Program-made: the position numbers and the translations under genes
The notes under the pieces: generated by a model
Seen by the model: the letters and a program-made list of their open reading frames with translations, nothing else
What the model was told of the DNA's origin: nothing
The model's database searches: none
Assembly (NCBI GenBank): GCA_945787125.1
Contig: CALZHW010000024.1
Span: 1 to 32,267, forward strand
Length of the DNA: 32,267 nt
Direction: 5' to 3'
Source of the DNA: an uncultured Ectothiorhodospiraceae bacterium
GTDB taxonomy: Bacteria; Pseudomonadota; Gammaproteobacteria; S012-40
Shown here: piece by piece, positions 3,744-27,203 of the stretch
How the letters are laid out: every line of letters starts with the position of its first letter
Position numbering within the stretch: the first letter of the stretch is position 1

Positions 3744-4169
3744 TTAATTCACTGTAATCCTTAAATCAAGTCCTAAATCTCCTAATTGAGTTAAGACATT
3801 ATTATCAAGCCTGCACTCATAACTTTTGGCTAACACAGAATTATTATTAGAGAGACCAAGATATAAATCCAATATCACTATCTGAACACTATCGATCTCT
3901 TTAAGATTTTTTCCCTCTAATATTTTTAGGAGAGAATTTAGTTCATTCTCAAATGAGAACTCTACTACTCTTTCAAATACCCATATTCCAAGTTCTTTAG
4001 GTGCCGCAGTCTTTCCGCTAGAAAGCTGCTTCCTATAACCTTTTTCATACGAGTAACTGGGCTCAAAACCAAGAGCATCTGTAACTAGTTGAGGTTTAAG
4101 CTGCTCCCCCCAAAGCCTAAGAGAAAAGCGAATAAGTTGAGAATCACACATATTATCTCTTTTAGTCAT
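3744..4169 (-). CDS. DUF4279-like protein, probable RHS immunity protein
   Basis: A 141-residue cytoplasmic protein without signal or membrane segment. The N-terminus (FSLRLWGEQLKPQLVTDALG, then EPSYSYEKG and a W-containing strand near residue 83) resembles the DUF4279 fold, which often accompanies polymorphic toxin loci. Its ATG (4169) lies 8 bp inside the end of the RHS gene, so it is translationally coupled to the toxin-bearing frame. That is the classic position for an immunity gene. An in-frame ATG at 4152 is an alternative start. What is seen is the overlap and the family resemblance; immunity function is inferred. Confidence 0.72.
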   Translation of the reverse strand: MTKRDNMCDSQLIRFSLRLWGEQLKPQLVTDALGFEPSYSYEKGYRKQLSSGKTAAPKELGIWVFERVVEFSFENELNSLLKILEGKNLKEIDSVQIVILDLYLGLSNNNSVLAKSYECRLDNNVLTQLGDLGLDLRITVN

Positions 4170-10993: not shown

Positions 10994-11011
10994 TTATTTC
11001 ATGCCCGTTCC
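10994..11011. repeat. Solo terminus of family-1 element
   Basis: TTATTTCATGCCCGTTCC matches the right end of copies A and B with one change (CCCG for CACG), followed by the expected TTA (11012-11014). The rest of that element is missing and the family-2 element abuts it, so one element probably inserted in or deleted the other. This fragment encodes the end of the GIY-YIG gene. Confidence 0.75.
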
Positions 11012-11265
11012 TTAACAAGAGTGCTCATATTAATAAGCTGCTGCTTTTTCTTTTGACTTAATTTCTTTATCTCAAGCTCCCGCCGGGTTGCAGTAGCGCG
11101 TGTGTGGCCTGGTTCGGTAAACAAGATCCTCAATGGCTTTTTTGAATAAAAATACTTAGCGCCTTTTTTCATTAAATGCTGATTAAAACGCTTCTCCACG
11201 TCGGTGCTAATTCCTGTGTATAGGGAATCGTCACTGCACAAGATAATATAAACTGTCCAATTCAT
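10999..11265 (-). CDS. GIY-YIG superfamily protein (UPF0213 type)
   Basis: 88 residues, the usual size of UPF0213 single-domain GIY-YIG proteins. The signature is present as VYIILCSDDSLYTGIS (the GIY and YIG positions), followed by R26 and H30 in EKRFNQH and the catalytic-type Glu in TRRELEIKKLS (E63). The family is thought to cut or bind nucleic acid; the biological role is unclear. The last four residues (KERA) and the TGA stop are encoded by the inverted terminus of a family-1 transposable element, so the native C-terminus has been replaced. The catalytic core is unaffected. Start: ATG 11265. Confidence 0.85.
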   Translation of the reverse strand: MNWTVYIILCSDDSLYTGISTDVEKRFNQHLMKKGAKYFYSKKPLRILFTEPGHTRATATRRELEIKKLSQKKKQQLINMSTLVKERA

Positions 11266-11581
11266 AATTTTTCACAAATCATTACGTTTATCCATACACC
11301 CAAAGCCTGTAAATCCTATCAGTCCAGCGTTTTTCAGCAAAATTGAGAACTAGTCCACATTGCCTCAGTGAATTCTATCACATTAAATATGTGATTCATT
11401 TCTCACTTCTTAGCAAAATGTGAAGTAACGCAAGATTTACTTGTGAATACGCTTCCAGAATCTATATAGCGCTCTTTAAGATTTTTTGCGTGTGACGATA
11501 ACCTAGGTAACACAGCTTAACAACACAATGACTAAGCTGTTTGATGACAACTTACACCCACAATACATTAGGAGAATTAAC
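11266..11581 (+). promoter_or_regulatory. Promoter region of flp / tad cluster, with a dyad
   Basis: This 316-bp AT-rich gap separates the divergent GIY-YIG gene and flp. At 11377-11395 is a 19-bp dyad, ATCACAT-TAAAT-ATGTGAT, with perfect 7-bp arms. It is a likely protein-binding site, though it has the opposite polarity to a CRP site (TGTGA-N6-TCACA). The flp ribosome site AGGAG is at 11570-11574. I could not fix a -35/-10 or -24/-12 pair with confidence. Confidence 0.45.
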
Positions 11582-11749
11582 ATGTTAGACACCATCAAAA
11601 CTTTCTTAAAAGACGAAGACGGCTTAACCATGATTGAATATGCAGTTGCTGGTGGTCTAGTAACACTCGGTGCAGTATTGGCATTCACCAATTTAGGTAC
11701 CGCAATCACAACAAAAGTAGACTCTATAGCTACTACTGTTTCAGGCTAA
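11582..11749 (+). CDS. flp: Flp-type type IVb major prepilin
   Basis: 55 residues: a short leader, then the Flp processing motif G14 / LTMIEY (cleavage after Gly, Glu at +5 and Tyr at +6), then a ~20-residue hydrophobic helix and a short polar tail. This is the usual layout of the major pilin of Tad/Flp pili, processed by the neighbouring CpaA-type peptidase. The ATG at 11582 follows TAGGAG at ideal spacing; an upstream in-frame ATG (11528) would add 18 residues without a ribosome site and is rejected. It is the first gene of the cluster, as expected. A strong hairpin follows it and probably sets its expression above that of the downstream genes. Confidence 0.95.
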   Translation: MLDTIKTFLKDEDGLTMIEYAVAGGLVTLGAVLAFTNLGTAITTKVDSIATTVSG

Positions 11750-11761
11750 TTAACGCGGTTG

Positions 11762-11788
11762 GGTGGGTAGCGTTTTCTGCTACCCACC
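11762..11788 (+). promoter_or_regulatory. Intercistronic hairpin after flp
   Basis: A perfect 10-bp stem, GGTGGGTAGC / GCTACCCACC, with a GTTTTCT loop. No U-run follows, so it is not a full intrinsic terminator. It more probably stabilises the short flp message or partly attenuates transcription into cpaA, 31 bp downstream. Confidence 0.7.
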
Positions 11789-11818
11789 TAAATAGTTCAT
11801 ATACAGGGAAGAATTATA

Positions 11819-12367
11819 ATGTTTGAACTAAATCTACCCTTTGCGATTTTAACGGTCATCTTAGTTTTATCAACCATTACTGATGTAAAAGAACATCGCA
11901 TACCTAATATACTCAGTTTGGGTGGCGTACTTATCGGAATAATCGTTCTCACTAGCACACAAGGATTTGCTGGCTTATTTTCAAGTCTACAAGGTATGGC
12001 CTTGGGACTAGTCCTATTCCTTCCCTTTTATCTATTGCGAGGTATGGCTGCCGGAGATGTAAAGCTCATGGCTGCTGTTGGGGCGTTTATTGGACCAAGC
12101 CTTACATTGGCGGCCGCCGCAGCGACGTTAATTGTCGGTGCAGTCTTGGCCATTGCTTATGCTGTATATATCGGTGGCGCCGGATTACTACTCAAACGTT
12201 ATAGCGATATGGCAAAAAATATGGTTGCCACACATCAATTCACCTATTTTAAGCCATGTGAAAATGATGCAGGAAGTCAACGTTTTCCCTATGCTGCTGC
12301 GATTCTTGTTGGGACTTATGTCGGCACCTGGTGGTTCAATCAATCATTCCCTTTACTGTCTTCCTAA
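11819..12367 (+). CDS. cpaA: Prepilin peptidase of the Tad system (A24 family)
   Basis: 182 residues of mostly membrane helices. The two catalytic aspartates of the A24 (GXGD-type) aspartic peptidases are visible: D22 in ITDVKEHRIPN and D80 in GMAAGDVKLMAAVG. It is the short, peptidase-only TadV/CpaA form without an N-methylation domain. It cleaves the leader from Flp and the TadE/F pseudopilins in the inner membrane. The late RFPYAAAI segment is also typical. The start is the ATG at 11819, preceded by AGGGAAG. Confidence 0.93.
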   Translation: MFELNLPFAILTVILVLSTITDVKEHRIPNILSLGGVLIGIIVLTSTQGFAGLFSSLQGMALGLVLFLPFYLLRGMAAGDVKLMAAVGAFIGPSLTLAAAAATLIVGAVLAIAYAVYIGGAGLLLKRYSDMAKNMVATHQFTYFKPCENDAGSQRFPYAAAILVGTYVGTWWFNQSFPLLSS

Positions 12368-12392
12368 CTCACCACATTGAGATCTGAACACT

Positions 12393-13190
12393 ATGCATGC
12401 CAATCGCACAAAAATAATGTTAGCTGTTGCCCTCTTGCTGGCAATTGTTGCTGCTTATATCGCTTATAACTGGCTGCAACAACGCGCTGATCAGACAGGA
12501 GAAGATGTCAACGTTGCAACTAAAACTGTCGTTGTTGCAGCGGTTGAAATTCCAATGGGCATAAAGGTAGAAGCGCCCCAGTTTAAGACGGTTGAGTGGC
12601 CCGCCGATTTACTGCCAGAAGGAAGTTATAGCAACATTGATGAGATTGTTGGCAAGGTTTCTTCCAGAACAATCTACCCAGAAGATGTTATCACCACGAA
12701 AATAGTGGCTGAACACGCGGGAGGCAACAACCTAGCGGCACTTATTACAAAAAACAAACGTGCTATCACCGTTCGAGTGGATGATGTTGTAGGAGTTGGA
12801 GGATTTCTGCTGCCCGGTAATCGAGTTGATGTTATTGGCGTTCGCCCTATCGAAAAAACCCGCCGCGTAGAAACAAGAATTATTATGAAAGATGTTGTCG
12901 TGCTTGCAGTGGATCAGGATATATCACCCGACGAAACAACACCTAAAGTGGTCAGAGCAGTGACACTAGAAATGCTGCCTGAGAGCACATTGAAAGTAAT
13001 GAAGGCCGCCAATGAAGGAAAAATTCAACTGGTATTAAGAAACCCTGCTGATCGTCATATTGTCGCCGCAGTAAAAAAACCGGTTAAACGTCGACCCAGG
13101 CCAAAGAAAGTGATTCCGAAAACTCCGAAACCTACTCAAATCACCGTCATTCGTGGCACTCAAGTGAATAATGAAAAACCAAATAGTTAA
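12393..13190 (+). CDS. cpaB: Flp pilus assembly protein CpaB / RcpC
   Basis: 265 residues. It has an N-terminal membrane anchor (about 7-25), a SAF-like domain (VVVAAVEIPMGIKVEAPQF, about 47-110) and the RcpC/CpaB domain (KRAITVRVDDVVGVGGFLLP ... RVDVIGVRP). The C-terminus is a basic Pro/Lys-rich tail (about 225-255). CpaB is a periplasmic partner of the CpaC secretin. It sits directly before cpaC (13 bp), as in most tad clusters. Start ATG 12393. Confidence 0.92.
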   Translation: MHANRTKIMLAVALLLAIVAAYIAYNWLQQRADQTGEDVNVATKTVVVAAVEIPMGIKVEAPQFKTVEWPADLLPEGSYSNIDEIVGKVSSRTIYPEDVITTKIVAEHAGGNNLAALITKNKRAITVRVDDVVGVGGFLLPGNRVDVIGVRPIEKTRRVETRIIMKDVVVLAVDQDISPDETTPKVVRAVTLEMLPESTLKVMKAANEGKIQLVLRNPADRHIVAAVKKPVKRRPRPKKVIPKTPKPTQITVIRGTQVNNEKPNS

Positions 13191-13203
13191 GGAAATAAAT
13201 TAA

Positions 13204-14835
13204 ATGATTATATATGGTACTGGAAGCAAAGCAGCAAAAAAAGTAGCAAGGCTACTGCTGCTTTATATGTTTTTTACCACCAGTATCGCTCACGCAACTG
13301 TGTCTGATCTGGTATTTGGTAACGCGCTTGAACATCTTGATGTGCCTATCAACCAATCCCGAATACTTGTATTCAACGACAAAATCGAAAATGTTGCCGT
13401 AGGCAACCCTGACGTTGCTGATATCGTCGTATTAGAATCCAAAAAACTCTATATATTAGGCAAAAGTCTAGGTACCACGAATATGGTTGTATGGGGGAGA
13501 AACACCCGTGGTGAACCAGAATATTCAACCCTGAATATAGACGTAGTGCATGATATTGATTCGTTAAAGGGGCATTTGCATGATTTATTTCCTGAGGAAT
13601 CACCACAAATTCGTTCCACTCAAGGCTCGATCATACTCAGTGGTGATATATCTTCCGTCGCCAAGGTTGAAGCAATCAGCAATTTATCAAAACAATTTGT
13701 TCGCAATGCAAAAAAATATAATTCTGTATCCGGTAGCGGTGATGATGATGAGAAAAAACAAGATATAGAAATAATTAATTTGATGCAGGTCGGTGGCCCC
13801 CATCAGGTAATGCTGGAAGTTAAAATAGCTGAAGTTTCACGTAGTGTATTAAAACGTTTGGGCATAAATCTCGCCGCTATGAGCCCTGGTCGGCCATGGA
13901 AGCTGGGTGCCGTTAATGGTGGTTCGAGCTTTCCTGCGGCATTAACCCAGGATGGTATGGAAGTTCCGTTATTTCCTAACGATCAAGCATGGAGCAATCT
14001 CAGTGACTCAATGATAGGCCCTGCCGTTCAATCATTTAACCCAACAACCCCCACCATCAGTGCGGCGGGTTTGTTTGCCAGCTTTTTATCGGGAAGTTCC
14101 TATTTTAATTTTATCCTAGATGCTTCAAAAGATGACGGATTAGCGAAAATACTGGCTGAACCAACACTCACCTCACTCAGTGGCGAAGCTGCAGAATTCT
14201 TATCAGGTGGTGAATTTCCTATTCCCATGTGGAGCGGCGAAGAAAACCGAGTCACTGTGATATTCAAGGAATACGGCGTTGCAGTTAAAATGCTGCCCGT
14301 CGTGTTGGAATCCAAGCGAATCAATCTAAGCCTCAATATCGGCGTGAGCGAATTATCCAATACAGCGGATATTGGTTTCAGTATTCCTAACTCCACTGTT
14401 TCATATTCTATTCCATCACTCACTACACGCAGTGCAAGCTCAACGATAGAATTAATGGATGGGCAAACAATCGGGATTGCCGGTTTAATCAGTGAAAAAA
14501 TGCGCGAGGCGATCAATAAATTTCCCGGACTGGGGGATATACCCGTACTGGGCTCACTATTCAGAAGCCAAACCTTTATCCAGGATCAAACAGAACTCGT
14601 CATGTTTGTCACGGCCCATTTGGCGAAAACCATAGATCCTAAAGATATACGCTTACCGACTGACGCTTTTAAGACACCCAGTGATGCCGAGTTTTTCTTG
14701 TTTGGCCGCATGGCGGACAAAGTAGATGATAGTTCGATTTCTTTCGGCAACATGAAATTTGCGAAATCAAATTCTGAAAAAGACGCAAACTATCCATCTC
14801 AATTTTCTGGCCCCACATTTGGTCATCAATTATAA
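13204..14835 (+). CDS. cpaC: Tad pilus secretin CpaC / RcpA
   Basis: 543 residues. A signal peptide ends at about SIAHA (31). The N-terminal pilus/secretin domain covers ~45-110 (RILVFNDKIENVAVGNPDVA), with a BON-like segment at ~115-165. The secretin C-domain (~300-480) carries LTTRSASSTIELMDGQTIGI and the near-terminal FPGLGDIPVLGSLFRS. It forms the outer-membrane pore through which the Flp pilus exits. An inserted stretch around residues 225-290 (Ser/Pro-rich) is longer than in compact family members. A ribosome site, AAGGAAAT, precedes the ATG. Confidence 0.95.
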   Translation: MIIYGTGSKAAKKVARLLLLYMFFTTSIAHATVSDLVFGNALEHLDVPINQSRILVFNDKIENVAVGNPDVADIVVLESKKLYILGKSLGTTNMVVWGRNTRGEPEYSTLNIDVVHDIDSLKGHLHDLFPEESPQIRSTQGSIILSGDISSVAKVEAISNLSKQFVRNAKKYNSVSGSGDDDEKKQDIEIINLMQVGGPHQVMLEVKIAEVSRSVLKRLGINLAAMSPGRPWKLGAVNGGSSFPAALTQDGMEVPLFPNDQAWSNLSDSMIGPAVQSFNPTTPTISAAGLFASFLSGSSYFNFILDASKDDGLAKILAEPTLTSLSGEAAEFLSGGEFPIPMWSGEENRVTVIFKEYGVAVKMLPVVLESKRINLSLNIGVSELSNTADIGFSIPNSTVSYSIPSLTTRSASSTIELMDGQTIGIAGLISEKMREAINKFPGLGDIPVLGSLFRSQTFIQDQTELVMFVTAHLAKTIDPKDIRLPTDAFKTPSDAEFFLFGRMADKVDDSSISFGNMKFAKSNSEKDANYPSQFSGPTFGHQL

Positions 14836-14848
14836 AGGCGGATAAAAA

Positions 14849-15124
14849 ATGAAATTTCTAACTTCTATCACACTGCTGATGTTAACTGCGTTAACGACAA
14901 CCGCTTGCACTACCCCTAAAATGGTAGATAAACAATTTGGAGAATCTGTGAGAAATATGGTGAAAAGTCAGGTTTATTATCCTTCAACAATAAATGATCC
15001 CAGCACTGAACAAGTGACCGGACAAAATGCGCAGAAAGCGATGTTAGATCAACAAAAAGTTTATCGCACGAGTGATGTTAGTAAAGAAAAAACCAAGCTT
15101 TCGGATATATTAGGTTCAAAATAA
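14849..15124 (+). CDS. Small Tad-cluster lipoprotein (91 aa)
   Basis: A signal peptide with a lipobox ending TTTAC (Cys about 20), then a short polar domain with QVYYPSTINDPST and a Lys-rich end. It occupies the slot between the secretin and the TadG-like gene, where alphaproteobacterial clusters have CpaD. It is far shorter than CpaD and has no obvious similarity, so it may be a secretin-associated pilotin or a lineage-specific subunit. AAGGCGG provides the ribosome site. The 13-bp gap to cpaC shows it belongs to the operon. Confidence 0.8.
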   Translation: MKFLTSITLLMLTALTTTACTTPKMVDKQFGESVRNMVKSQVYYPSTINDPSTEQVTGQNAQKAMLDQQKVYRTSDVSKEKTKLSDILGSK

Positions 15125-15147
15125 ATGGGCACCGTTGAGCAAACATT

Positions 15148-16314
15148 ATGCAGGACACTGTAACACGTCATCAAAAAGGCTCCATTATTCCCACCGTCGC
15201 CATTTCTATGCTGGCGATTATGGGTATGGCGGGCTTGGTACTGGATGCTAGCCATTTGTTTGCCAGTAAAACCCGTTTGCAAAACGTCATTGATAGCACA
15301 ACACTGGCGGCAGCCACTGTGCTGGATCAAACACGTAGCCAAGCGACGGCGCGAGAAGCAGCAAGAAAAGTATTTGATGAAACCATTGCCCAGCCAGGCA
15401 ACGGTGTCTTACAAGATCTTGGCCTGGATGCGACTAACCTGGTGATACAATTTTCAGACACCCGCAATCCCTTTATCGCAAGTCCAGCCGCCACCCGTTA
15501 CGCTCGTTTGAGAATAAACCCCGGCACGGTAGAGATAGACACGTTGATGATGAACATTGTCGGTGTTGATTCGCTCGAACTCTCCGGCAGTGCTGTCGCC
15601 GGCCCTAGCCCCGGATTAGGCGTAGTTTGCAACATCACACCTGCGCTGGTCTGCGGTGACTCATTTGTTCCACCAAACGGAAGTGGCATGTTTGGTTATA
15701 ACTTTGGTGATCAGGTAACATTGGCATTGGGAGACAAACAAAATAATAACGTCGGCCCAGGCAATTATCAATTGCTCAGCGTAGATGAAAACGCCAAAGG
15801 TGGAAATGCAATTAGAGACTATATGGCTGGCGGTTACACCGGCTGCATTTCATCCACAGAAACCATCGAAACAAAACCAGGTAAAACCAAAGGACCATTG
15901 TCACAAGGAATCAATACTCGATTCGGCATATATAGTGGGCCGGTTAGCAGTGATGAATTCCCCCCCGATCTTGTCAACGATGCTGGTGCTGCCGGATATC
16001 CTGATAGCTATGCCGAATATGTACAAGACTATCGCATGAAGAATTACGATGACCCACTAGATGGCATTGCCAAACGCCGAGTGGTTAATGTTGCTTTTGG
16101 CAGTTGCAACGGTACAGTTAATGGCCGTGGAGATGTGCCCATTCTTGGATTTGGTTGTGTTTTTCTAATCAAACCCATGGGCAATAGCGGTGCATTGGAG
16201 GGCGAACTCGTCCGAGAATGCAAAAGTGGAGGCATACCGGGGCCAGCCCCAATTGATGGCCCTGGCATCCACACCATCCAGCTCTATGGCGACCCGGATC
16301 GTTGGGATTCATGA
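15148..16314 (+). CDS. TadG-like pilus assembly protein
   Basis: 388 residues. The N-terminal TadE/TadG-like hydrophobic segment (KGSIIPTVAISMLAIMGMAG, about 10-30) is followed by LVLDASHLFASKTRLQNVID, the standard TadG start, then a periplasmic domain. The C-terminal two thirds has four to six cysteines (CNITPALVC, TGC, GSCNG, GFGCV, REC) suggesting disulfides, and is Gly/Pro-rich. I see no clear von Willebrand A metal site, so it is the short TadG variant. Role: an envelope-anchored minor component of the Tad machine. It ends in ATGA, overlapping the next gene. Confidence 0.82.
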   Translation: MQDTVTRHQKGSIIPTVAISMLAIMGMAGLVLDASHLFASKTRLQNVIDSTTLAAATVLDQTRSQATAREAARKVFDETIAQPGNGVLQDLGLDATNLVIQFSDTRNPFIASPAATRYARLRINPGTVEIDTLMMNIVGVDSLELSGSAVAGPSPGLGVVCNITPALVCGDSFVPPNGSGMFGYNFGDQVTLALGDKQNNNVGPGNYQLLSVDENAKGGNAIRDYMAGGYTGCISSTETIETKPGKTKGPLSQGINTRFGIYSGPVSSDEFPPDLVNDAGAAGYPDSYAEYVQDYRMKNYDDPLDGIAKRRVVNVAFGSCNGTVNGRGDVPILGFGCVFLIKPMGNSGALEGELVRECKSGGIPGPAPIDGPGIHTIQLYGDPDRWDS

Positions 16315-16811
16315 ACGCCATGAAGGCTATCAAGCCTAAGAAGTCAAGGCAACAGGGACTGGCAAGCATTGAGCTTGCGATCTCCTTACCCTTTCTGATT
16401 TTAATGCTCGTTATTATGGGGGAGCTAGGTTATCTCATGTTTCAGCAAACCAGCTTAACCAAATCCATCGAAAATGGCGCCATGTATGCCGCAAAAAACA
16501 CTCGCCTGGGAACAGGTCTGGTAAAGATCGAAGCGCAGACGATTCAAGATGCGCGTAATCTCGTTATCTATGGCAGCCTGGCGGGCACCGGAAATAAAAT
16601 CATTGAAAGCATTGAACCGGAAGATATCAGTCTAAGCTGCTCTTATGGTACAAAAAACGGTTTTTGTGAAAAAGAACAAGGCATTCAAACAATAACAATA
16701 CAAGCTAATGTCAACTATGACCCAGTTTTAGGCTCCCTCTTTCATGCTGTGACAGGCTACGCACTTTTTCCACTGACCTTGTCCGCTACATCTATTGTAG
16801 TCCCTATTTGA
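16311..16811 (+). CDS. TadE-type pseudopilin (first)
   Basis: A 4-bp ATGA overlap with the TadG-like gene fixes the start at 16311. A TTG nine bases upstream is possible but less likely. About 166 residues: a basic N-terminus, then the TadE signature GLASIELAISLPFLILMLVI (conserved Glu within the hydrophobic helix), then a periplasmic domain with two Cys (LSCSYGTKNGFCE) that probably pair. TadE/TadF are processed by the prepilin peptidase and are thought to form or prime the pilus base. Translational coupling with TadG is evident. Confidence 0.87.
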   Translation: MNAMKAIKPKKSRQQGLASIELAISLPFLILMLVIMGELGYLMFQQTSLTKSIENGAMYAAKNTRLGTGLVKIEAQTIQDARNLVIYGSLAGTGNKIIESIEPEDISLSCSYGTKNGFCEKEQGIQTITIQANVNYDPVLGSLFHAVTGYALFPLTLSATSIVVPI

Positions 16812-16845
16812 TTTCATTTGATTTTTAGTTGAGCAGGACTTTAAC

Positions 16846-17304
16846 ATGCAGAAACAACTTGGCACAGTAACAGTTGAACTAGCAATTGTCGGTTCCCTAT
16901 TCTTTTTACTGCTACTTGCCGTTATAGAAGTAGGCAGAGTGATGTATACCATGAATGCGCTCAATGAAGCCACTCGCCTGGGGGCGCGTGCAGCAAGTGT
17001 CTGCCAGGTACAACACGGCGTGATAAAAGACATCGCAACGTTCAATGGCGGTGGATTATTAGGCGGACTGGAGACCAGTCATATTACGGTAAATTATCTT
17101 GATGAAAATGGTAACGTCGTCGCTGACCCTAGTCCATCCAATGAATTTGGCTTTTTACAAGTCAGATACGTCAAGGTTGAAATTACGGGCTTCACCTACA
17201 ACATGATGCTCCCGGGAGTAGGTGCGCTAACATTACCAACTTTTTCAACCACGCTATCAAGAGAGAGCTTAGGAATTATACCTAATGAAGCAGCAGGATG
17301 TTAA
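16846..17304 (+). CDS. TadE/TadF-type pseudopilin (second)
   Basis: 152 residues with the same N-terminal pattern, GTVTVELAIVGSLFFLLLLA then VIEVGRVMYTMNALNEATRL, which is a canonical TadE-like domain. The periplasmic part ends in a lone Cys-containing tail (EAAGC); another Cys is in ASVCQ. Together with the preceding gene it makes the usual TadE/TadF pair. The ATG at 16846 follows GAGCAGGAC. A small inverted-repeat element separates it from cpaE. Confidence 0.86.
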   Translation: MQKQLGTVTVELAIVGSLFFLLLLAVIEVGRVMYTMNALNEATRLGARAASVCQVQHGVIKDIATFNGGGLLGGLETSHITVNYLDENGNVVADPSPSNEFGFLQVRYVKVEITGFTYNMMLPGVGALTLPTFSTTLSRESLGIIPNEAAGC

Positions 17305-17362
17305 ACCTTTATCGTGCTCTTCTCAAATTTGTTCATCGGCTGAGTAATCTGCGATGATTTTA

Positions 17363-17541
17363 GGGTTGCCCTAAAAATTAGTTTACATTTATGGGTTTTC
17401 AATCGCCATTTTAGCACCAAAAGTAGGCGCTCTTAGGCGAGGCGTGAGGAAGGCAAATAGCGAGCTATTTAACTGACGAACAACGCAGCTAAAATGAGTG
17501 AGTGAAAAGTTAGAAGTGTGAAATAATTTTATAGGCAGCCC
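17363..17541. mobile_element. Small inverted-repeat element, family 4, inside the tad cluster (179 bp)
   Basis: The left end GGGTTGCCCTAAAAATTA and the right end (other strand) GGGCTGCCTATAAAATTA are imperfect inverted repeats. TTA borders both sides (17360-17362 and 17542-17544) as a target duplication. Inside is a hairpin (AAATAGC / GCTATTT) and a block around GACGAACAACGCAGC. It has no coding capacity. It fills most of the 261-bp gap between the pseudopilin gene and cpaE, the largest gap within the cluster. Confidence 0.72.
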
Positions 17542-17565
17542 TTAGGTTAACCAATTGGAAGTAAC

Positions 17566-18765
17566 ATGGAAAAAAGGATTAATGTAAATTTGGTAGGCAA
17601 CCAAACTGATGACATAACGTCATTGGAGAATGCGCTACGAGACAACAATAATATTGAAACGTATTTCTATTCTGAAATATCCGATTATGTTAGCGACGCA
17701 AAGAATTTTTCGAACCCACGCTCAATAACAATTTTAAATCTTACTACTGACTGGCAAGAAACTCTCGATAACATCAAACAATACAGCAATCTAACTAACG
17801 GCAGCTTGTTAGTTGTTGGGCCCGAAAACACCCAGGCCATGCGTGCAACACTGCGACTTAATGCGCATGATTACTTCTCTAACCCGATTAATACAACAGA
17901 AATCAGTGAAGCGATTGAAGAGCTAACGCAAAAACTCAGTAAATCTAATGTAGAAGAAACCAAACCACAGGTCGCCACCATAATTAATACCGAAGGCGGA
18001 TCAGGCAGCTCATTTATTGCAACCAACATTGCTCATCTGTTGGCAACGGCACATCTTCAAAAAGTCGCTTTGTTAGACATGGATGTTCAGTTTGGCAGCC
18101 AATCACTGAACCTTGATCTGGCACAACAGTATGGCATTAGTGATGTACTCTCCAGCATTGGAAAATTAGATAGTATCGCATTGCCGTCTTACATGGCCAA
18201 GCATAAAAGTGGGGTACACGTATTGGGTGAAAAACTGGAAGACATCGTTATCCCCAGTGAAATTCCGCCGGAAAACATTGAAAAACTGATAACACTTTGC
18301 AGCCAAACATTTACTCATACTATCATTGACCTTCCCCGACAAATCGATTCGTTATTTGCGACAGTAGTGACAAAAAGTGATCGCGTGGTGCTGGTCATGC
18401 AACAAACCCTAGCGCACGTTCGCGATACCAAACGTTTGCTAACAATCTTAACCCAAGAATTTGAAGTGCCTAAGAATCAAATTACCCTCATTGTCAATCG
18501 TCATGATGAAAAACATGCCATCTCTAAGAAAGATATTGAAAACACGGTTGGTCACCCAACCGCATTCATTTTACCAAATGATTATGAACGCGCAGTAAAA
18601 GCCACTGAGTTAGCCAAACCCTTTGTAGACTCCGCGCCAAATACACCACTGGCAAAAGGCTTACAAGAACTTAGTCTAAAAATTCTGGGTGACAATCACC
18701 CTAAAAAAGCCAACACCCCAGCAGAAAAATTTTCCTGGGGCGGTTTGTTCGGCGGAAAAAAATGA
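17566..18765 (+). CDS. cpaE: CpaE / TadZ-like MinD-family ATPase
   Basis: 399 residues. The N-terminal ~130 form a receiver-like domain without an obvious phosphoacceptor pattern. From ~138 comes a ParA/MinD-type domain: IINTEGGSGSSFIATNIAHL (P-loop region, about 139-158), then LLDMDVQFGSQSLNLDL, then IIDLPRQ. The deviant Walker A of this superfamily normally reads KGG..; here the signature Lys is Glu and the second Lys is Ser, so ATP binding or hydrolysis may be weakened, as in atypical TadZ proteins. CpaE/TadZ places the Tad machine at the pole or a focus. It stands 17 bp before cpaF. Start ATG 17566. Confidence 0.9.
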   Translation: MEKRINVNLVGNQTDDITSLENALRDNNNIETYFYSEISDYVSDAKNFSNPRSITILNLTTDWQETLDNIKQYSNLTNGSLLVVGPENTQAMRATLRLNAHDYFSNPINTTEISEAIEELTQKLSKSNVEETKPQVATIINTEGGSGSSFIATNIAHLLATAHLQKVALLDMDVQFGSQSLNLDLAQQYGISDVLSSIGKLDSIALPSYMAKHKSGVHVLGEKLEDIVIPSEIPPENIEKLITLCSQTFTHTIIDLPRQIDSLFATVVTKSDRVVLVMQQTLAHVRDTKRLLTILTQEFEVPKNQITLIVNRHDEKHAISKKDIENTVGHPTAFILPNDYERAVKATELAKPFVDSAPNTPLAKGLQELSLKILGDNHPKKANTPAEKFSWGGLFGGKK

Positions 18766-18782
18766 TAAGTCAGGAATAAAAT

Positions 18783-20207
18783 ATGGGATTACGTGCGAGA
18801 TTATTAAAAGCGACTCAATCATCTGCAACCACTGATGATGAACTTTCGATTGATAACCAGGAGATAATGGAAGAAATTATTAATTTTTCCATGGACGAAG
18901 AAGAACCCGTTCAAAACAGTGAATATTTAAGTGATCACGAAAAAAAATACCGTGAAGAAATACTTAAAAAATTGTTTGAAGCGGTAGACATGTCACGTAT
19001 TGGTAAACTGGACAAGGAAGAAGCCAAAACGCAAATCAAACAACTGGTAGAATCCATCATCAAAGATAATGATTTCCCACTGAGCATGGATTCACGGCTT
19101 AAAATGACCCAGTTTATTGAAGACGAAATTTTAGGCCTCGGTCCTTTGGAATTCCTGATGCGGGATCCACAAATTTCGGAAATCATGGTCAATGGCGCCT
19201 CTCACATTTTTATTGAAAAATCCGGTAAGTTGCAACTTAGCAACGTGGTATTTGATAACGATGCTCACGCCATGCGAATCATCGACCGAATTGTTTCACG
19301 GGTTGGTCGCAGAATCGATGAATCCAGTCCAATGGCGGATGCTCGACTGGAAGATGGTTCCCGGGTAAATGTCATTATCCCACCCCTCGCATTAGATGGC
19401 CCCGTCATCACCATACGACGGTTTCCTGCTGATCCATTAACGCTAAATATCATGGTGGAAAAAAATGCGCTATCAATTGGTATGGCAACATTTTTAAAAG
19501 CAGTAGTGAAAATTGGTAAAAATATTTTGATATCCGGCGGAACAGGATCCGGTAAAACAACCGCACTCAATGCTTTATCCGCCTTTATTCCAGAAGATGA
19601 GCGCATCGTAACAATTGAAGATGCCGCCGAATTGCAACTGCAACAAGAACATTTGGTAAGACTGGAAACACGCCCACCAAATATTGAAGGTAACGGTGAA
19701 ATCAGTCAGCGTGAATTAGTCAAAAATGCACTACGAATGCGACCTGATCGAATTATTGTTGGTGAGGTTCGGGGAGCAGAAACAATGGATATGCTGCAAG
19801 CCATGAATACTGGACACGATGGTTCACTTACCACCACACATGCTAACACACCCCGAGATGCCCTGGCGCGAATAGAAAATCTGGTCGCCATGGGTGGATT
19901 TGAACTACCCATAAAAGCGGTGCGAGCACAAATTGCGTCAGCGATTCATTATGTCGTACAAGTACAACGACTGGAAGATGGCAGTCGTCGTATGACCAGC
20001 ATTGCAGAAATCAACGGCATGGAAGGTGAAATCATCACCATGTCCGAACTATTCCTGTTTGAACGTCGCGGTATCGACCAGAACAACAAAATCAAAGGCG
20101 TGTTTAAACCTACCGGCGCTATGCCAGCCTGTATCGATGCGCTAAAACGCCGCGGTATTGAGTTAGATGTTGATTTCTTTGACCCAGACAATGAAGTAGA
20201 AGTGTGA
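18783..20207 (+). CDS. cpaF: Tad secretion ATPase CpaF / TadA
   Basis: 474 residues. The N-terminal part is helical and acidic. The type II/IV secretion ATPase core has Walker A GGTGSGKTTALNAL (~252-265), the Asp box RIVTIEDAAELQL, Walker B MRPDRIIVGEVRGAE (~320-333) and the His box TTTHANTPRDALARIE. All catalytic residues are present. The hexameric ATPase drives assembly (and in some systems retraction) of Flp through the TadB/TadC platform. Confidence 0.96.
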   Translation: MGLRARLLKATQSSATTDDELSIDNQEIMEEIINFSMDEEEPVQNSEYLSDHEKKYREEILKKLFEAVDMSRIGKLDKEEAKTQIKQLVESIIKDNDFPLSMDSRLKMTQFIEDEILGLGPLEFLMRDPQISEIMVNGASHIFIEKSGKLQLSNVVFDNDAHAMRIIDRIVSRVGRRIDESSPMADARLEDGSRVNVIIPPLALDGPVITIRRFPADPLTLNIMVEKNALSIGMATFLKAVVKIGKNILISGGTGSGKTTALNALSAFIPEDERIVTIEDAAELQLQQEHLVRLETRPPNIEGNGEISQRELVKNALRMRPDRIIVGEVRGAETMDMLQAMNTGHDGSLTTTHANTPRDALARIENLVAMGGFELPIKAVRAQIASAIHYVVQVQRLEDGSRRMTSIAEINGMEGEIITMSELFLFERRGIDQNNKIKGVFKPTGAMPACIDALKRRGIELDVDFFDPDNEVEV

Positions 20208-20225
20208 ATGAGTGAGGCATAAGAC

Positions 20226-21200
20226 ATGGAAACAGGCTTAATAGTTTTAGTTGCAATAGTTGGAGTCGCGGTATTCCTTTTCGAGTGGGTAATGCTACGC
20301 GCGGTATATTCCCCCGAAAAAGTAGATAACCGCCGGGTTAAAGAACGTATCGCAAACCTCAAGCAACAAAAAAAAGTTGACAGTGAAGAATCACTAATCA
20401 AAGAAGATTATCTGGCGAAAAATAGTGATTTTTACCGAAAAGTTTCAGTGTTACCCGGCTTCTGGCTGTTACCATTGTGGGCCGAGCAAGCGGGTGAAAA
20501 CATTAAAGTCGAAAAATTCATCTGGTCGAGTGTAATTACCGCCAGTGTCTTTGCTATTGTCAGCTGGTTTCTGCTTTCCAATATACTAATTTCACTGGCT
20601 TTGGGTCTGAGTGCACTTTTTTTCCCGTTGATGAAGTTGATTCTAAAAAAACGTAGACGACTTAATCAGTTTGATGAGCAATTACCGGAGGCGCTGGACA
20701 TAATGACCAGAGCCTTGCGCGCTGGTCATCCATTTACTTCAACTTTGAAGTTGGTCTCTGATGAATTGACCGGCGCTATTAGTGAAGAAATGGGCCTGAC
20801 CTTTGCTGAACTAAATTTCGGTGTGACGGTGGACGTAGCACTATCGAGTTTGATACGCCGTGTACCTTCAAAAGCGTTAAAGTCTTTAGTGACAGCGATA
20901 TTGCTACAACGTGAAACAGGCGGAAATCTTGCTGAAATTCTGGAAAAAATTAGTAGCGTTGTCCGTGATACTTATAAATTTCAACGTAAACTGGTGTCAC
21001 TCTCGGCAGAAGGCAAACTCTCCGCAATTGTACTTGGCTCTGTGCCGTTAGTATTAGCTGCCGGGATAACATTGGTTGCACCTGACATTGTGTCAGAGTT
21101 AATCACCAATCCTAAAGGCCATACTCTACTTTACGGTTCGGGTTTTTTATATTTTATCGGCTTTATCTGGATCAAATCGGTCATTAAAATCGAGGTGTAA
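20226..21200 (+). CDS. tadB: Tad inner-membrane platform protein TadB
   Basis: 324 residues with a T2SS-F domain (about 155-280; DEQLPEALDIMTRALRAGHP and LLQRETGGNLAEILEKIS) flanked by membrane helices: one at the N-terminus, a pair near 100-140 and a pair at the C-terminus. The first of the two TadB/TadC platform proteins that convert ATPase motion into pilus assembly. It is 18 bp after cpaF. Confidence 0.94.
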   Translation: METGLIVLVAIVGVAVFLFEWVMLRAVYSPEKVDNRRVKERIANLKQQKKVDSEESLIKEDYLAKNSDFYRKVSVLPGFWLLPLWAEQAGENIKVEKFIWSSVITASVFAIVSWFLLSNILISLALGLSALFFPLMKLILKKRRRLNQFDEQLPEALDIMTRALRAGHPFTSTLKLVSDELTGAISEEMGLTFAELNFGVTVDVALSSLIRRVPSKALKSLVTAILLQRETGGNLAEILEKISSVVRDTYKFQRKLVSLSAEGKLSAIVLGSVPLVLAAGITLVAPDIVSELITNPKGHTLLYGSGFLYFIGFIWIKSVIKIEV

Positions 21201-21205
21201 TCAGA

Positions 21206-22159
21206 GTGGACTATTTTGCAGCAATATTGACTGAGTTTGTCGGTGATCCGGAGTTAGCCAACTGGTTGGTTGTGTTAATTATTGGCTTTGCATGCCTGCT
21301 TTTTATTGTTGCGTTTATGTTTCTAATCAGTGGTATTTTTAGCCCATTTCGTCGTCGTTTACGCGCGATACAAGGTATTAAAAAAACGGTCATCAAAAAA
21401 GATAATAATGTTGGCCTGTCGATTGGCAATATTAGCCCAGTCTTTCTCCCTAAGGATGCGAAAGAAGTCAGTAAAATTCGCTCCAAGCTGATTCAAGCTG
21501 GCTTCCGGGAAAAATCTGCCACGTCAATTTTCTTTGCGACAAAAACCATCGCGGCCATCGCCCTGCCTGCGGTTGTCGTGGTGGCAGCGCCCTTCATTCC
21601 TGGAATTGGACTCAAAGATATCATTATTTACGCCATGATTTCCACCGGGATTGGCGTGTTTGGGCCCAACATCGTATTAGAAAAGTTATTGGCTAAACGA
21701 CAGAAAAAAATTCGCCAAGGGTTTCCCGATGCACTGGATTTATTGGTGGTGTGCGTAGAGGCAGGCCTGGGTTTCGACATTGCAATCCGTCGAATCGCAC
21801 GTGAAATGCAACATTCTCATCCCGTTATTGCTGAAGAGTTTGGTATTGTGAGCGCTGAAATTGGTGCCGGTGTTGATCGCATAGGGGCATTAAAAAGTTT
21901 TGCTGACCGTACCGGCTTGACAGATATCCAAGGCTTTGTTGCCCTGCTCTCACAAAGTATCCGTTTTGGTACCAGCATAGGCGATACCTTGCGCATCTAT
22001 TCCGAAGACTTTCGTGATAAACGCATGCAAAAAGCCGAAGAAATGGCCGCTAAAGTCAGCACCAAAATGATTTTCCCCATGGTTCTTTGTTTTTTCCCCA
22101 GCTTTTTTGTCGTAGCTGGCGGCCCAATCATCCTAAGAGTGATGGATGTCTTAAAATAA
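21206..22159 (+). CDS. tadC: Tad inner-membrane platform protein TadC
   Basis: 317 residues with a T2SS-F domain (about 175-300; FPDALDLLVVCVEAGLGFDI and QSIRFGTSIGDTLRIYSEDF) and membrane helices near 15-40, 110-150 and the C-terminus. It starts with a GTG at 21206, only 5 bp after tadB, so the two are probably translationally coupled in a fixed ratio. It is the second half of the platform. Confidence 0.94.
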   Translation: MDYFAAILTEFVGDPELANWLVVLIIGFACLLFIVAFMFLISGIFSPFRRRLRAIQGIKKTVIKKDNNVGLSIGNISPVFLPKDAKEVSKIRSKLIQAGFREKSATSIFFATKTIAAIALPAVVVVAAPFIPGIGLKDIIIYAMISTGIGVFGPNIVLEKLLAKRQKKIRQGFPDALDLLVVCVEAGLGFDIAIRRIAREMQHSHPVIAEEFGIVSAEIGAGVDRIGALKSFADRTGLTDIQGFVALLSQSIRFGTSIGDTLRIYSEDFRDKRMQKAEEMAAKVSTKMIFPMVLCFFPSFFVVAGGPIILRVMDVLK

Positions 22160-22275: not shown

Positions 22276-23235
22276 ATGAGTCAAACCAACAGTTTTTTGC
22301 ATATTATAATATTTCTAGTCTGTAGTTCACTATTGACCGGTTGCTCCAGTATGCAAACACAAGAAGGTGGTGAATACGATTTTTTCCTGGAGAACAAACA
22401 GGGTGAAAAAATCAAACCAGTCACCGCAAGTACAAGAATAAAAAGCAACAAAGAAGCGAAAGCTAAAGCTAAAGCGGCATTGCAACAAGGCGATAATGAT
22501 ACGGCATTGCTCTACTTTGTTAAAGCACTTGAGCACAATGACCATGATGCGGAAGCACTAAACGGTGTTGCTCACATTCACTTTATTCAAGGTAATAATA
22601 ACTTAGCCATTTTGGCGTTCCGCATGATACTCGCCGACGAACCTGATAACCTTAACGCGAAAGAAGGTTTAGGTCTTGCTCTCATTGCGGCGCATAAATA
22701 TAACGATGCCAGAATGGTGCTACTCGGCGCACTGAAAGACAATCCACAGCGTATAAAAATTTATAATGGTTTAGGGGTTATTTCCGATTTGCAGCGTTAT
22801 TATAGCGAAGCCAAGTGGTTTTACGCCAATGCATTGCTTATCGATAATAATTCGGCCATCACCATGACGAATCTCGGTTACTCCTATTATTTAGAAAATC
22901 AATGGGACAAGGCTGAAAAAATTTATAAAAAAGTCTTAGATAATCACCCAAATCATGTGCAGGTTCATCTAAATTATGGGCTATTGTTGGCACGTCAGGG
23001 TGAGTTATATGATTCCGTGGCTTCGTTTGAACAAGTATTAGATGAACCGCAAGCCTATAACGAAATAGGTTATATCATGATGCTCGACAAAAAATATCTG
23101 ATGGCTGAGCAACTTTTTCAAAAAGCCATATCTGCTTCACCCAGCTATTTTTCAAGAGCGCATGAAAACATGGAGAAGTTGCGCGAATTAAAAACCAAAA
23201 GGAAAACAAAAAAAACCGTAAAAAAACCGCAATAA
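22276..23235 (+). CDS. tadD: TadD-like TPR lipoprotein
   Basis: 319 residues. A lipoprotein signal ends LLTGC (Cys ~23), a Lys/Ala-rich linker follows, then about six tetratricopeptide repeats (~57-295; for example AEALNGVAHIHFIQGNNNLA and WDKAEKIYKKVLDNHPNHVQ) and a strongly basic tail. TadD acts as a periplasmic/outer-membrane scaffold needed for secretin assembly. Its start codon has a weak ribosome site within the 3' arm of the preceding structured segment. It is separated from tadC by 116 bp but is in the same direction. Confidence 0.9.
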   Translation: MSQTNSFLHIIIFLVCSSLLTGCSSMQTQEGGEYDFFLENKQGEKIKPVTASTRIKSNKEAKAKAKAALQQGDNDTALLYFVKALEHNDHDAEALNGVAHIHFIQGNNNLAILAFRMILADEPDNLNAKEGLGLALIAAHKYNDARMVLLGALKDNPQRIKIYNGLGVISDLQRYYSEAKWFYANALLIDNNSAITMTNLGYSYYLENQWDKAEKIYKKVLDNHPNHVQVHLNYGLLLARQGELYDSVASFEQVLDEPQAYNEIGYIMMLDKKYLMAEQLFQKAISASPSYFSRAHENMEKLRELKTKRKTKKTVKKPQ

Positions 23236-23251
23236 TCAGCGAGGACAAATA

Positions 23252-26200
23252 ATGCTACAAGGTCTCGTTAATACACTAAAAACACTATTTGTAACTGGCA
23301 GTTGTTTACTGATAATTTCTTGCAGCTGCAGCAATACAGCTGGTGTGAAAGGCAATGGCGACCTGATCGCGCCAAAGGTTTCTTCAACTAACCCATCGAA
23401 GTTTAAAACAAAAGTATCTCTCAATACATTTATATCCGTTTCGTTCAATGAAGAAATGAACAGTAACAGCATCACGCAACAAAGCTTTTACCTTAAAGAT
23501 AAAAATAAACGACTGATTCCTGCAGAAGTTTTTTCAAATGGTAAAAATAGTATTCTTAAACCCAGTGAAGTTCTTGAGCCTTTCTCGAGTTACAGCGCCA
23601 CTGTAGCAAGAAAGGCCGCCGACTTGAACGGCAATCTACTGACACAGGATTATCAATGGTCATTTACAACAGGAAATGAACTCGATAATACGCCGCCAGA
23701 AGTTGAAGAGATAATTCCTGGAGAAAATGAAGAAAATGTAAAAATAGATAGCAATCTCACAGTCTATTTTAATGAGCTAATAGATTATACTTCGATTAAT
23801 GAAAGCTCTTTTCGCCTTGAAAATAACGCTGGAACACAAATAACAGGCTCACTGGAAATTATTGATAATCAAATTATATTTAATCCCACTGAACCATTTA
23901 GCTTTGGAACTCAATATTCACTGACACTCACCACGGAAATACAAGATGTTTCTGGCAATAATTTAAGTAGCAATTTTACTAATTTTTTTACGACTGAATC
24001 TCTACCGGATACTACTGGTCCTTATGTCGTCAATGTCTATCCAAAAAATGAAGCACTCAATGTTGCCAGCAATTCCAGTATTTCCGTTGCATTTGACGAG
24101 GAACTAGGTAACGATGCCACCAACCCCAACAATTTTCTAGTGACCCATTCTAACGGACAAAACGTCAGTGGCATCATCACATTGAAAAACAATACGCTAT
24201 TTTTCACCCCCAGCACTGAGTTTTCTACTAAAACACAATATACCGTTAGCTTAAAAAAAGCCATTAGTGATATCAATGGCAATCCAATGTTAGCAGATTT
24301 CAGTTGGCAATTCACAACAGGTGATTTTGCAGATACATCACCACCTTCCGTCTCATTTGTCATGCCGGAAATAGACGCCGTTGATGTCGCCAATAACAAT
24401 GCGATTACGGTCACTTTTTCCGAAGCTATTGATCCCAAAACACTCGGCGTAAATAAATTTACCGTACAAGAAGGTAATACGTACATTTCAGGAGACATTG
24501 CCTATTCCGGCACGACTGCCATATTCAAACCCAATAAAATAATGGCCAACAATACAGAACATACAGTAACAATTATTAAAGGTGTCAGCGATCTGGCAGG
24601 CAACCTGACAGCCAACGACTTTACCTGGAGCTTTACGGTCGGCACCGAGCGGGACAATAATATACCTCGGGTTTCGTCGGTTTATCCCGCTAATGACGCA
24701 AACAGTTTTGCAGTAAACAGTTCGATTATCGTTCGCTTTACCGAGGCAATGAACCCGTCAACGTTGACTCCACAAACATTCTATCTGCAAGATAGTGCAG
24801 GCAATACCGTAGACGGCTTAGTGGTAACAATAGGCGCTTCATCGTCGTTTAAACCATTGACCTCACTTAATTTTGAAGAGCAATATACCGCCTTCATAAG
24901 CAACATGGCAGAAGATTTGGCAGAAAACACCATGGCAGAAACCTATAGCTGGAATTTTACTACCGCTAGCCTGGAAGATACTATCAGTCCAAGCATTATA
25001 TCGACTGTGCCATCCAGCGCTAGTCAGCAAGCGGCAGTGAATCGCGGTATTATCGTCAGTTTTTCAGAAAGCATTGATGCAGAAAGCATAAACCAGGAAA
25101 GTTTCTATCTGACTGATACAGCGAACAAATTGATCCCGGGCACCGTCAGTGTAATAGAAAATACTGCTACGTTCTGGCCGAACAATGAACTGGATTATAC
25201 AAAAACTTACGTGGTGACATTATTGAAAAGCATCACCGACCTTTCTGGCAATCCATTAAACAAAATATTCAGCTGGAATTTCACTACCAGCTCGCAACCC
25301 GACACAGTGTCGCCAACCGTTATTCTAACCGTACCCGCGGAAAATGGACTTGCTGCGATTAATCATCGACTTGCTATTCAGTTTAGCGAGGCAATGAATA
25401 CCGCTAGCTTATCAGCAGCCACTGTAATCCTCACTAAACTTGATAATACTGAAATCCCGATAAATGTAAATATCGCTGAGAGAAATGCCTACATTACACC
25501 AATAAATACACTTGATTTCGACACCTTTTATCGCATCAAAATAAGCACTGGGGTAAAAGACCTGGCAAATAACAGGATGGCAAATGAATTCATTCTAAAT
25601 TTTCAAACCAGTCTTCATCCCGACCTGGCACCACCCTTTGTTGTCAGTACATCACCCTACAGCGAAGAACCCAATGTCTTGATTACACAAAACCCCAGCA
25701 TTGTCTTCAGTGAAGCGATTAATTGTATTACGGTGACGAGTGATCACTTTCGCATACTGAATAATTCAATCCCGATCGCAGGAACGGTGCAATGCAGCGT
25801 TGACAGTATGACGTTAACATTTATTCCTAATAATCCGTTACCTACTCAAACGACTTTCACCTTACAAGCCACGACTGATATCATTGATCTTTCTGGTGAT
25901 AATTTGGAAGCGCCTTATCAATCTGCTTTCACTACTGCGGCATGGACCCAACAAAACGGTACGTTTTTATCTGATCAAACTTTTTCGATAACCGCTGATA
26001 GTAGTAACAATCTGCTTAGCGCTGGTTTTACCATGGGAAATTTTGGTGCAATAAATGCTGGCAGTGCAGATATATTTATCACTAAACACAGTAAAGACAG
26101 CCTATTATTATGGACACAACAGTTTGGTAGCGCACAAGATGACTTTGCAACAGCCGTAACAACCGATAACACTGGTAATGTTTATATTACCGGTTATACG

Positions 26201-27142
26201 TATGGGGATCTAGCAGGCAGCAACCAGGGGGCGTCTGATATTTTTATCATGAAACTAGACAGTAACGGTTTGTTATTATGGCAACAACAATTGGGCACGC
26301 TTGAAGATGATGCGGCAAATAGTATAACACTCGACAATGCTGGTAATATTTTAGTGGCCGCTTACAGCTTCAGCAGTTTTGACGGTAAACCTCACAGTGG
26401 TGAACATGATATAGTCACTCTAAAACTCGATCGTGACGGCAACAAACTTTGGAGCCAGCAATTCGGTTCACCAGCCTATGACATCCCCAATTCAATTAAG
26501 GTTGATTCTGCAAATAATATTTATCTAACCGGTTATACCGAAGGCACCTTGAATGGCAACCCCAATCAAGGTGAAGCCGATGTTTTTGTCAGTAAACTCA
26601 ATACGAGTGGTGCTCTGCAGTGGACAACATTGCTCGGCTCCGGCTCAGAAGAAAAAGCCCAGGCACTGACGTTGGACTCAGACGATAATATAATCATTAG
26701 CGGTTTTACCTTAGGTGACTTGCAAGGTGAAACCAATTTAGGAAATTTTGGTGCTGATCAGTTTGTGGCAAAAATCGCGAATGATGGGACTTTAATGTGG
26801 TATCGACAAACCGGCACGACAGTAGATGATCGCGCTTATGGTGTTGCAGTCACTGCTGAAGATGACATTATTGTAACCGGTTATACGGCTGGCGACATGG
26901 CAGGCATCAATGCTGGGAAATTTGACGTGGTGAGCTATAAACTAGGAGCGGACAACGGTAACACACTCTGGACAACACAACTTGGCACCATCGAAGATGA
27001 TGTGAGTTTTGCGCTGGCATTAGACAGCGAAGATAACATTTACCTGGGCGGTTTTACGCTAGGCAACTTAGATGCTATTGTTAATCTTGGTCAGCAAGAC
27101 TTTACCCTTTTGAAACTCAATCCAGCCGGTGACAAACAATAG
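23252..27142 (+). CDS. Giant Tad-linked lipoprotein: 8 SbsA Ig-like domains + 7 SBBP repeats
   Basis: 1296 residues. The signal peptide ends in the lipobox LLIISC (C24). Residues ~37-895 are eight tandem ~108-residue SbsA-type Ig-like (Big_5) domains. Each opens with D-x-x-x-P-x-V, carries FSEAM(N/D) or a variant and closes with W-x-F-T-T. Residues ~896-1296 are seven ~57-residue SBBP repeats (pattern D-x-x-G-N-x-Y-x-T-G-Y-T-x-G ... L-x-W-x-x-Q-x-G-T), enough for one seven-bladed beta-propeller. The architecture is that of a surface stalk with a binding head. It begins 16 bp after tadD, ends the operon at a terminator, and so probably acts with the Tad pilus as an adhesin or surface anchor. 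The role is inferred; no catalytic motif is seen. Confidence 0.88.
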   Translation: MLQGLVNTLKTLFVTGSCLLIISCSCSNTAGVKGNGDLIAPKVSSTNPSKFKTKVSLNTFISVSFNEEMNSNSITQQSFYLKDKNKRLIPAEVFSNGKNSILKPSEVLEPFSSYSATVARKAADLNGNLLTQDYQWSFTTGNELDNTPPEVEEIIPGENEENVKIDSNLTVYFNELIDYTSINESSFRLENNAGTQITGSLEIIDNQIIFNPTEPFSFGTQYSLTLTTEIQDVSGNNLSSNFTNFFTTESLPDTTGPYVVNVYPKNEALNVASNSSISVAFDEELGNDATNPNNFLVTHSNGQNVSGIITLKNNTLFFTPSTEFSTKTQYTVSLKKAISDINGNPMLADFSWQFTTGDFADTSPPSVSFVMPEIDAVDVANNNAITVTFSEAIDPKTLGVNKFTVQEGNTYISGDIAYSGTTAIFKPNKIMANNTEHTVTIIKGVSDLAGNLTANDFTWSFTVGTERDNNIPRVSSVYPANDANSFAVNSSIIVRFTEAMNPSTLTPQTFYLQDSAGNTVDGLVVTIGASSSFKPLTSLNFEEQYTAFISNMAEDLAENTMAETYSWNFTTASLEDTISPSIISTVPSSASQQAAVNRGIIVSFSESIDAESINQESFYLTDTANKLIPGTVSVIENTATFWPNNELDYTKTYVVTLLKSITDLSGNPLNKIFSWNFTTSSQPDTVSPTVILTVPAENGLAAINHRLAIQFSEAMNTASLSAATVILTKLDNTEIPINVNIAERNAYITPINTLDFDTFYRIKISTGVKDLANNRMANEFILNFQTSLHPDLAPPFVVSTSPYSEEPNVLITQNPSIVFSEAINCITVTSDHFRILNNSIPIAGTVQCSVDSMTLTFIPNNPLPTQTTFTLQATTDIIDLSGDNLEAPYQSAFTTAAWTQQNGTFLSDQTFSITADSSNNLLSAGFTMGNFGAINAGSADIFITKHSKDSLLLWTQQFGSAQDDFATAVTTDNTGNVYITGYTYGDLAGSNQGASDIFIMKLDSNGLLLWQQQLGTLEDDAANSITLDNAGNILVAAYSFSSFDGKPHSGEHDIVTLKLDRDGNKLWSQQFGSPAYDIPNSIKVDSANNIYLTGYTEGTLNGNPNQGEADVFVSKLNTSGALQWTTLLGSGSEEKAQALTLDSDDNIIISGFTLGDLQGETNLGNFGADQFVAKIANDGTLMWYRQTGTTVDDRAYGVAVTAEDDIIVTGYTAGDMAGINAGKFDVVSYKLGADNGNTLWTTQLGTIEDDVSFALALDSEDNIYLGGFTLGNLDAIVNLGQQDFTLLKLNPAGDKQ

Positions 27143-27152
27143 TACTAAAAAA

Positions 27153-27178
27153 AGCGCTGCTAGCTAGATAGCAACGCT
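27153..27178 (+). terminator. Terminator at end of the tad cluster
   Basis: The stem AGCGCTGCTA / TAGCAACGCT (one mismatch) has a GCTAGA loop and is preceded by an A-run (27148-27153). A weak T-tract follows (CTATTTA). On the other strand the A-run becomes a T-run, so it can stop transcription from both directions. Confidence 0.7.
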
Positions 27179-27203
27179 CTATTTAGTGAGAATTTAACAA
27201 AGC

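Follow-up and report, generated by a model that had tools for sequence, protein, structure and literature searches.

A predicted lipoprotein of 1296 aa, encoded directly behind a tad pilus cluster in an uncultured Ectothiorhodospiraceae bacterium, is probably, judging from its sequence, an accessory member of a stalk-propeller architecture that recurs in Gammaproteobacteria. Pfam, repeat cutting and the lipobox agree on the organization originally predicted for it, namely, a lipid anchor followed by eight SbsA Ig-like domains and seven SBBP repeats. Since the same design recurs without tad genes, the most likely reading is that of an ordinary accessory protein for surface binding which shares an operon with the pilus genes by coincidence, and its place in the operon had by itself suggested too close a link to Tad. 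The analysis documents a recurring, uncharacterised class of gammaproteobacterial lipoproteins with a Big_5 stalk of variable length and an SBBP propeller. The window, that is, the whole stretch of DNA analysed, spans 32,267 nucleotides, and the genome assembly from which it comes consists of 321 contigs.

Anchor, stalk and propeller of the lipoprotein

The gene is uninterrupted across 1296 codons, running exactly from position 23252 to 27142 on the plus strand, and the N-terminus of its product is MLQGLVNTLKTLFVTGSCLLIISC-SCSN. This was read by eye as a signal peptide (23252–23323, plus strand) with the lipobox IISC (I21-I22-S23-C24), a presumed lipidated Cys24 and Ser at +2. The lipobox argues for lipidation of Cys24, and the serine would sort the lipoprotein to the outer membrane. 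The length of 1296 aa is as originally given, but the epithet ‘giant’ was generous, considering the SBBP protein of ~1800 aa in the same genome and the Big_5 lipoprotein of 2113 aa in a relative. The former is the largest propeller-repeat protein seen in the window genome (G000); it has 1797 aa and at least seven SBBP repeats (contig C74, L093 11339–16732).

The putative stalk corresponds to aa 37–897 (23360–25942, plus strand) and consists of eight Big_5 domains, in units of 107–108 aa, which Pfam recovers as eight stretches (PF13205, E=6.7e-152). When cut at the repeat period, the units share a mean pairwise identity of 29% and a mean alignment score of 125 (shuffled controls: mean about −19, maximum 28). 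The seven SBBP blades occupy aa 898–1296 (25943–27139, plus strand); the Pfam profile (PF06739, E=3.7e-28) covers four stretches over threshold, and repeat cutting yields seven blades of 56–59 aa each, with a mean pairwise identity of 37% and a mean alignment score of 95 (shuffled controls: mean about −19, maximum 17). In both regions, the scores lie far above those of the shuffles, indicating that the repeats are not due to chance.

A single-sequence AlphaFold2 model of aa 893–1296 displays a regular strand pattern (mean pLDDT 69, pTM 0.73), and the closest solved structure in a Foldseek search is the propeller of CylK (E=1.7e-22, 31% identity, TM 0.70 by query), which is also the best PDB match by sequence (phmmer, E=9e-60). 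The predicted assignment of aa 898–1296 to one seven-bladed propeller is thus supported by repeats, model and fold comparison alike. By contrast, a Big_5 triplet was folded poorly in single-sequence prediction (mean pLDDT 46), so that the shape of the stalk is taken from the Pfam family assignment. With an Ig-like domain length of about 4 nm, eight domains would span ~30 nm, which is beyond the usual periplasm and favours surface exposure.

The tad cluster and the position of the lipoprotein gene

The genes upstream of the lipoprotein form a complete tad cluster. Pfam, ORF and related-cluster evidence places flp, tadV, rcpC, rcpA, a small lipoprotein gene, tadG, tadE, tadF, tadZ, tadA, tadB and tadC at 11528–22159 on the plus strand, with the flp-like pilin near 11576–11749 (flp start near 11576); tadD, encoding a TPR lipoprotein recognized by Pfam TPR families, follows at 22276–23235 (plus strand). 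Pfam identified the prepilin peptidase, RcpC, RcpA, TadG, two TadE-like proteins, a TadZ-like ATPase, TadA and TadD, and TadB and TadC were identified through matches in other clusters. TadD is described as the secretin pilotin in P. aeruginosa (PMC10499894).

As originally noted, the lipoprotein gene starts 16 bp after tadD (23235 to 23252), on the same strand and at the end of the tad cluster, and the gap holds an AGGA motif resembling a ribosome-binding site. Given this short distance, the gene is probably co-transcribed with tad in this lineage, as the last in the apparent transcription unit. The ‘cluster terminator’ that was proposed behind it fared less well: a hairpin is present (27151–27180, −16.7 kcal/mol, z=−2.4), but its T-run lies on the minus strand, with none on the plus strand, so that it is terminator-like in the opposite direction. 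Both terminator-like and promoter-like sites around the gene occur in chance numbers and so do not define where the operon ends.

There is no sign of recent, separate insertion of the lipoprotein gene, because its GC3 (0.38) falls inside the range of the tad genes (0.33–0.46); recent acquisition of the gene alone from a foreign source was accordingly set aside on composition. The flanking genes (cytochrome b561 and histidine kinase to the left, a ybiB-like gene to the right) are conserved in relatives, where they are separated from each other, which left no clean insertion point readable in an empty-site comparison.

Several other features of the window deserve mention. A 91-aa lipoprotein is encoded between rcpA and tadG (14849–15124, plus strand), with no Pfam match over the cut-off; five other clusters (L042, L126, L127, L129 and L131; below threshold in L130) have a match at the equivalent position, and these counterparts share with it a motif like DFGNSVRxM. 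This protein may be a component of this tad subtype that has yet to be described. By eye, we also recognized an Rhs/YD-repeat-like C-terminal portion (4162–6150, minus strand) followed by a small gene (3744–4169, minus strand) for a candidate immunity partner, and an 88-aa GIY-YIG-like ORF between the histidine kinase gene and flp (10999–11265, minus strand).

Distribution of the design inside and outside tad loci

A TadC search of 369 genomes of the class yielded 36 other clusters; one named locus, from an uncultured Marinobacterium, brought the total to 37, and in 26 of these the sequence continues for 5 kb or more past tadC. A search within one order added seven loci from six genomes; in four of these loci, over 5 kb follow tadC. 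Window-derived profiles detected a Big_5/SBBP protein in none of these 44 gammaproteobacterial tad loci, 30 of which extend at least 5 kb beyond tadC, so that the expected terminal Big_5/SBBP lipoprotein did not materialize and the protein was rejected as a core tad component. In the Marinobacterium cluster, the sole named locus matched by TadC, no such gene lies beside the tad genes. In the seven loci of the order, tadD, where present, ends the cluster with no Big_5/SBBP gene after it. Of the eight loci of the class survey whose TadC is most similar, six have tadD with no tad-like gene beyond, in L044 tadD is followed by tadF- and tadG-like genes, and L047 has no recognisable tadD. Within the family of the window genome, tadA is present in the window genome only (1 of 13 genomes). 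A plasmid search returned only partial matches, below 60% identity, and the 12 kb around the best of these (Caballeronia) contain no tad genes. Because the survey covered 369 genomes in stretches of at most about 19 kb per locus, with several contigs ending soon after tadC, the conclusion that the design is unlinked to tad elsewhere is well supported but not exhaustive.

Conversely, lipoproteins in which a lipobox and one or two Big_5 domains precede an SBBP propeller are found away from tad in at least four other genomes, two of them in the family of the window genome. Within the family, G002 encodes three such paralogues (L078, L079 and L082) and G006 encodes two (L080 and L081), all with two Big_5 domains. 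In other families, the G249 protein (L101, 655 aa) has two Big_5 domains and seven SBBP repeats, and is encoded next to glycosyltransferase-like and core metabolic genes, and the G112 protein (L102, 761 aa) has at least one Big_5 domain and seven SBBP repeats. No tad genes surround any of these lipoproteins, and neither G249 nor G112 has a TadC match at 1e-20. Five further genomes (G130, G244, G246, G345 and G359) have a tad cluster as well as a profile match, and the two are on separate contigs or more than 200 kb from each other. The original idea of a ‘pilus-plus-anchor’ system therefore finds no backing as a conserved arrangement: the gene is missing from every other surveyed tad locus, genomes that gave no tad match encode proteins of the same architecture, and homologues unlinked to tad, named at the outset as a finding that would refute the idea, argue against a tad-linked component.

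The closest full propeller to that of the window is the one from G249 (35% identical). In a propeller tree with mostly weak branches (2 of 12 starred), the window propeller is placed, with weak support, apart from the two-Big_5 proteins of its own family. Stalk length varies widely, as two relatives, G008 and G007, encode lipoproteins with ~10 Big_5 domains (L096 2505–8846 and L109 2031–5054), in which no SBBP propeller was detected. In G000, a 656-aa protein with one Big_5 domain (contig C150, L094 531–2501) is encoded just upstream of a pilT-like gene (L094 2846–3880), which was called from its N-terminus and matches tadA weakly.

Possible functions and known systems

We consider it about an even proposition that the protein is a fibrillar-adhesin-like outer-membrane lipoprotein, an accessory stalk-and-head binder which shares the tad operon and is not part of the Tad machine. 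The lipid anchor predicted from the lipobox would fix the N-terminus in the outer membrane, the eight Ig-like domains would act as a spacer, and the propeller would serve as a ligand-binding head some tens of nanometres off the membrane, aiding attachment or ligand capture while the pilus genes are on. The earlier proposal of a surface adhesin thus survives in part: anchor, Ig-like stalk and propeller head make a surface role plausible, but a conserved tad partnership is not supported. As to export, some bacteria bring lipoproteins to their surface by type II secretion, and the window genome encodes the type II component GspC, so that this system may be the route. A search for Slam (PF04575) gave no match, but its control gave none either.

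It is rather unlikely that the protein stays in the periplasm as an envelope lipoprotein, its stalk packed there and its propeller on an envelope component, such as the secretin or peptidoglycan. The default location of a lipoprotein with Ser at +2 is indeed the inner leaflet of the outer membrane, and TadD and CpaD are described as lipoproteins that belong to the Tad secretin or lie close to it (PMC10499894, PMC13170226). However, a stalk of ~30 nm would exceed the usual periplasm, and stalks that range from one to about ten Big_5 domains among relatives would be odd for spanning a fixed gap. That the gene is a chance neighbour, lying behind tadD with no functional or transcriptional tie to the pilus, is in our estimate unlikely; linkage to tad in one genome only and the many contexts of such lipoproteins speak for it, but the 16-bp gap with its ribosome-binding-site-like motif, and promoter-like sites at chance numbers only, point to one transcript.

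We regard as still more doubtful a dedicated partner of the Flp pilus, that is, a surface tether or receptor whose propeller would bind the pilus or its tip, or hold the cell after retraction. Such a partnership would suit the last gene of the tad unit, and lipoprotein and pilus would both act outside the outer membrane; furthermore, the accessory tips of Myxococcus Tad pili are exchangeable (PMC12075869), indicating that lineage-specific additions occur. Nevertheless, no other surveyed tad locus has the gene, homologues exist without tad, and we saw no pilin-like or secretin-binding feature in the lipoprotein. An elaboration of this idea, ‘reach and clamp’, in which the operon gained a dedicated anchored receptor whose ~30-nm stalk and propeller would hold on to the substrate or the tip of the pilus once the pilus has retracted, appears improbable; such a two-step attachment device is not described for Tad pili. 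The lipoprotein may act together with the Flp pilus, and, if it does, it would illustrate how one operon can control both a retractable pilus and a fixed adhesin.

Propellers of the SBBP/CylK kind include both enzymes, such as CylK, and protein-binding scaffolds. An enzyme related to CylK is nevertheless very improbable here, despite CylK topping the PDB matches by both sequence and fold, because the Ca-binding domain with Arg105 is missing and, in the best-scoring register, Asp440 stands opposite Gln909 and Tyr473 opposite a gap; since the blades repeat and other registers are possible, this apparent absence of catalytic residues (Arg105, Tyr473 and Asp440 in CylK; PMC8916777) is a strong hint rather than proof. 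A CylK-type alkylase was accordingly rejected.

The accessory stalk-and-head binder that we favour has partial counterparts among several known systems. TadD and CpaD of the Tad machine are comparable in being outer-membrane lipoproteins whose genes belong to tad clusters or accompany them, but the 1296-aa lipoprotein lacks a TPR or OmpA-like fold and is absent from other tad clusters. CylK (PDB 7ron, 7fh6), a cyanobacterial Friedel-Crafts alkylase, has a propeller built from the same family of repeats (about 31% identity) and an N-terminal Ca-binding domain with the catalytic Arg105 that is absent here, whereas the Ig-like stalk and predicted lipid anchor are absent from CylK. The LipL53-family proteins of Leptospira (NF047494) are also lipoproteins with an SBBP propeller, and their profile matches the lipoprotein at E=2.1e-44; however, the match is confined to the propeller, and its score of 152 bits is under the curated cut-off of 400, so that membership was rejected. 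Closest in design are the Big_5/SBBP lipoproteins of G249, G112, G002 and G006, which have the same order of lipobox, Big_5 and C-terminal SBBP propeller, but only one or two detected Big_5 domains compared to eight, and no tad neighbour. Our literature search on Big_5, SBBP and tad found no paper on their combination, and neither SBBP nor ‘propeller’ occurs in the main texts of two studies of fibrillar adhesins (PMC8286594, PMC9210967), so that the adhesive head is put forward here as a hypothesis. The general plan of fibrillar adhesins described in these studies, an anchor, a repetitive stalk and a distal head, is also predicted for the 1296-aa lipoprotein, in which the eight Big_5 domains provide the repetitive Ig-like stalk and the lipobox a candidate surface anchor; the difference lies in the attachment, as fibrillar adhesins are held by sortase, autotransporter or RTX retention and the lipoprotein would be held by its predicted lipid anchor.
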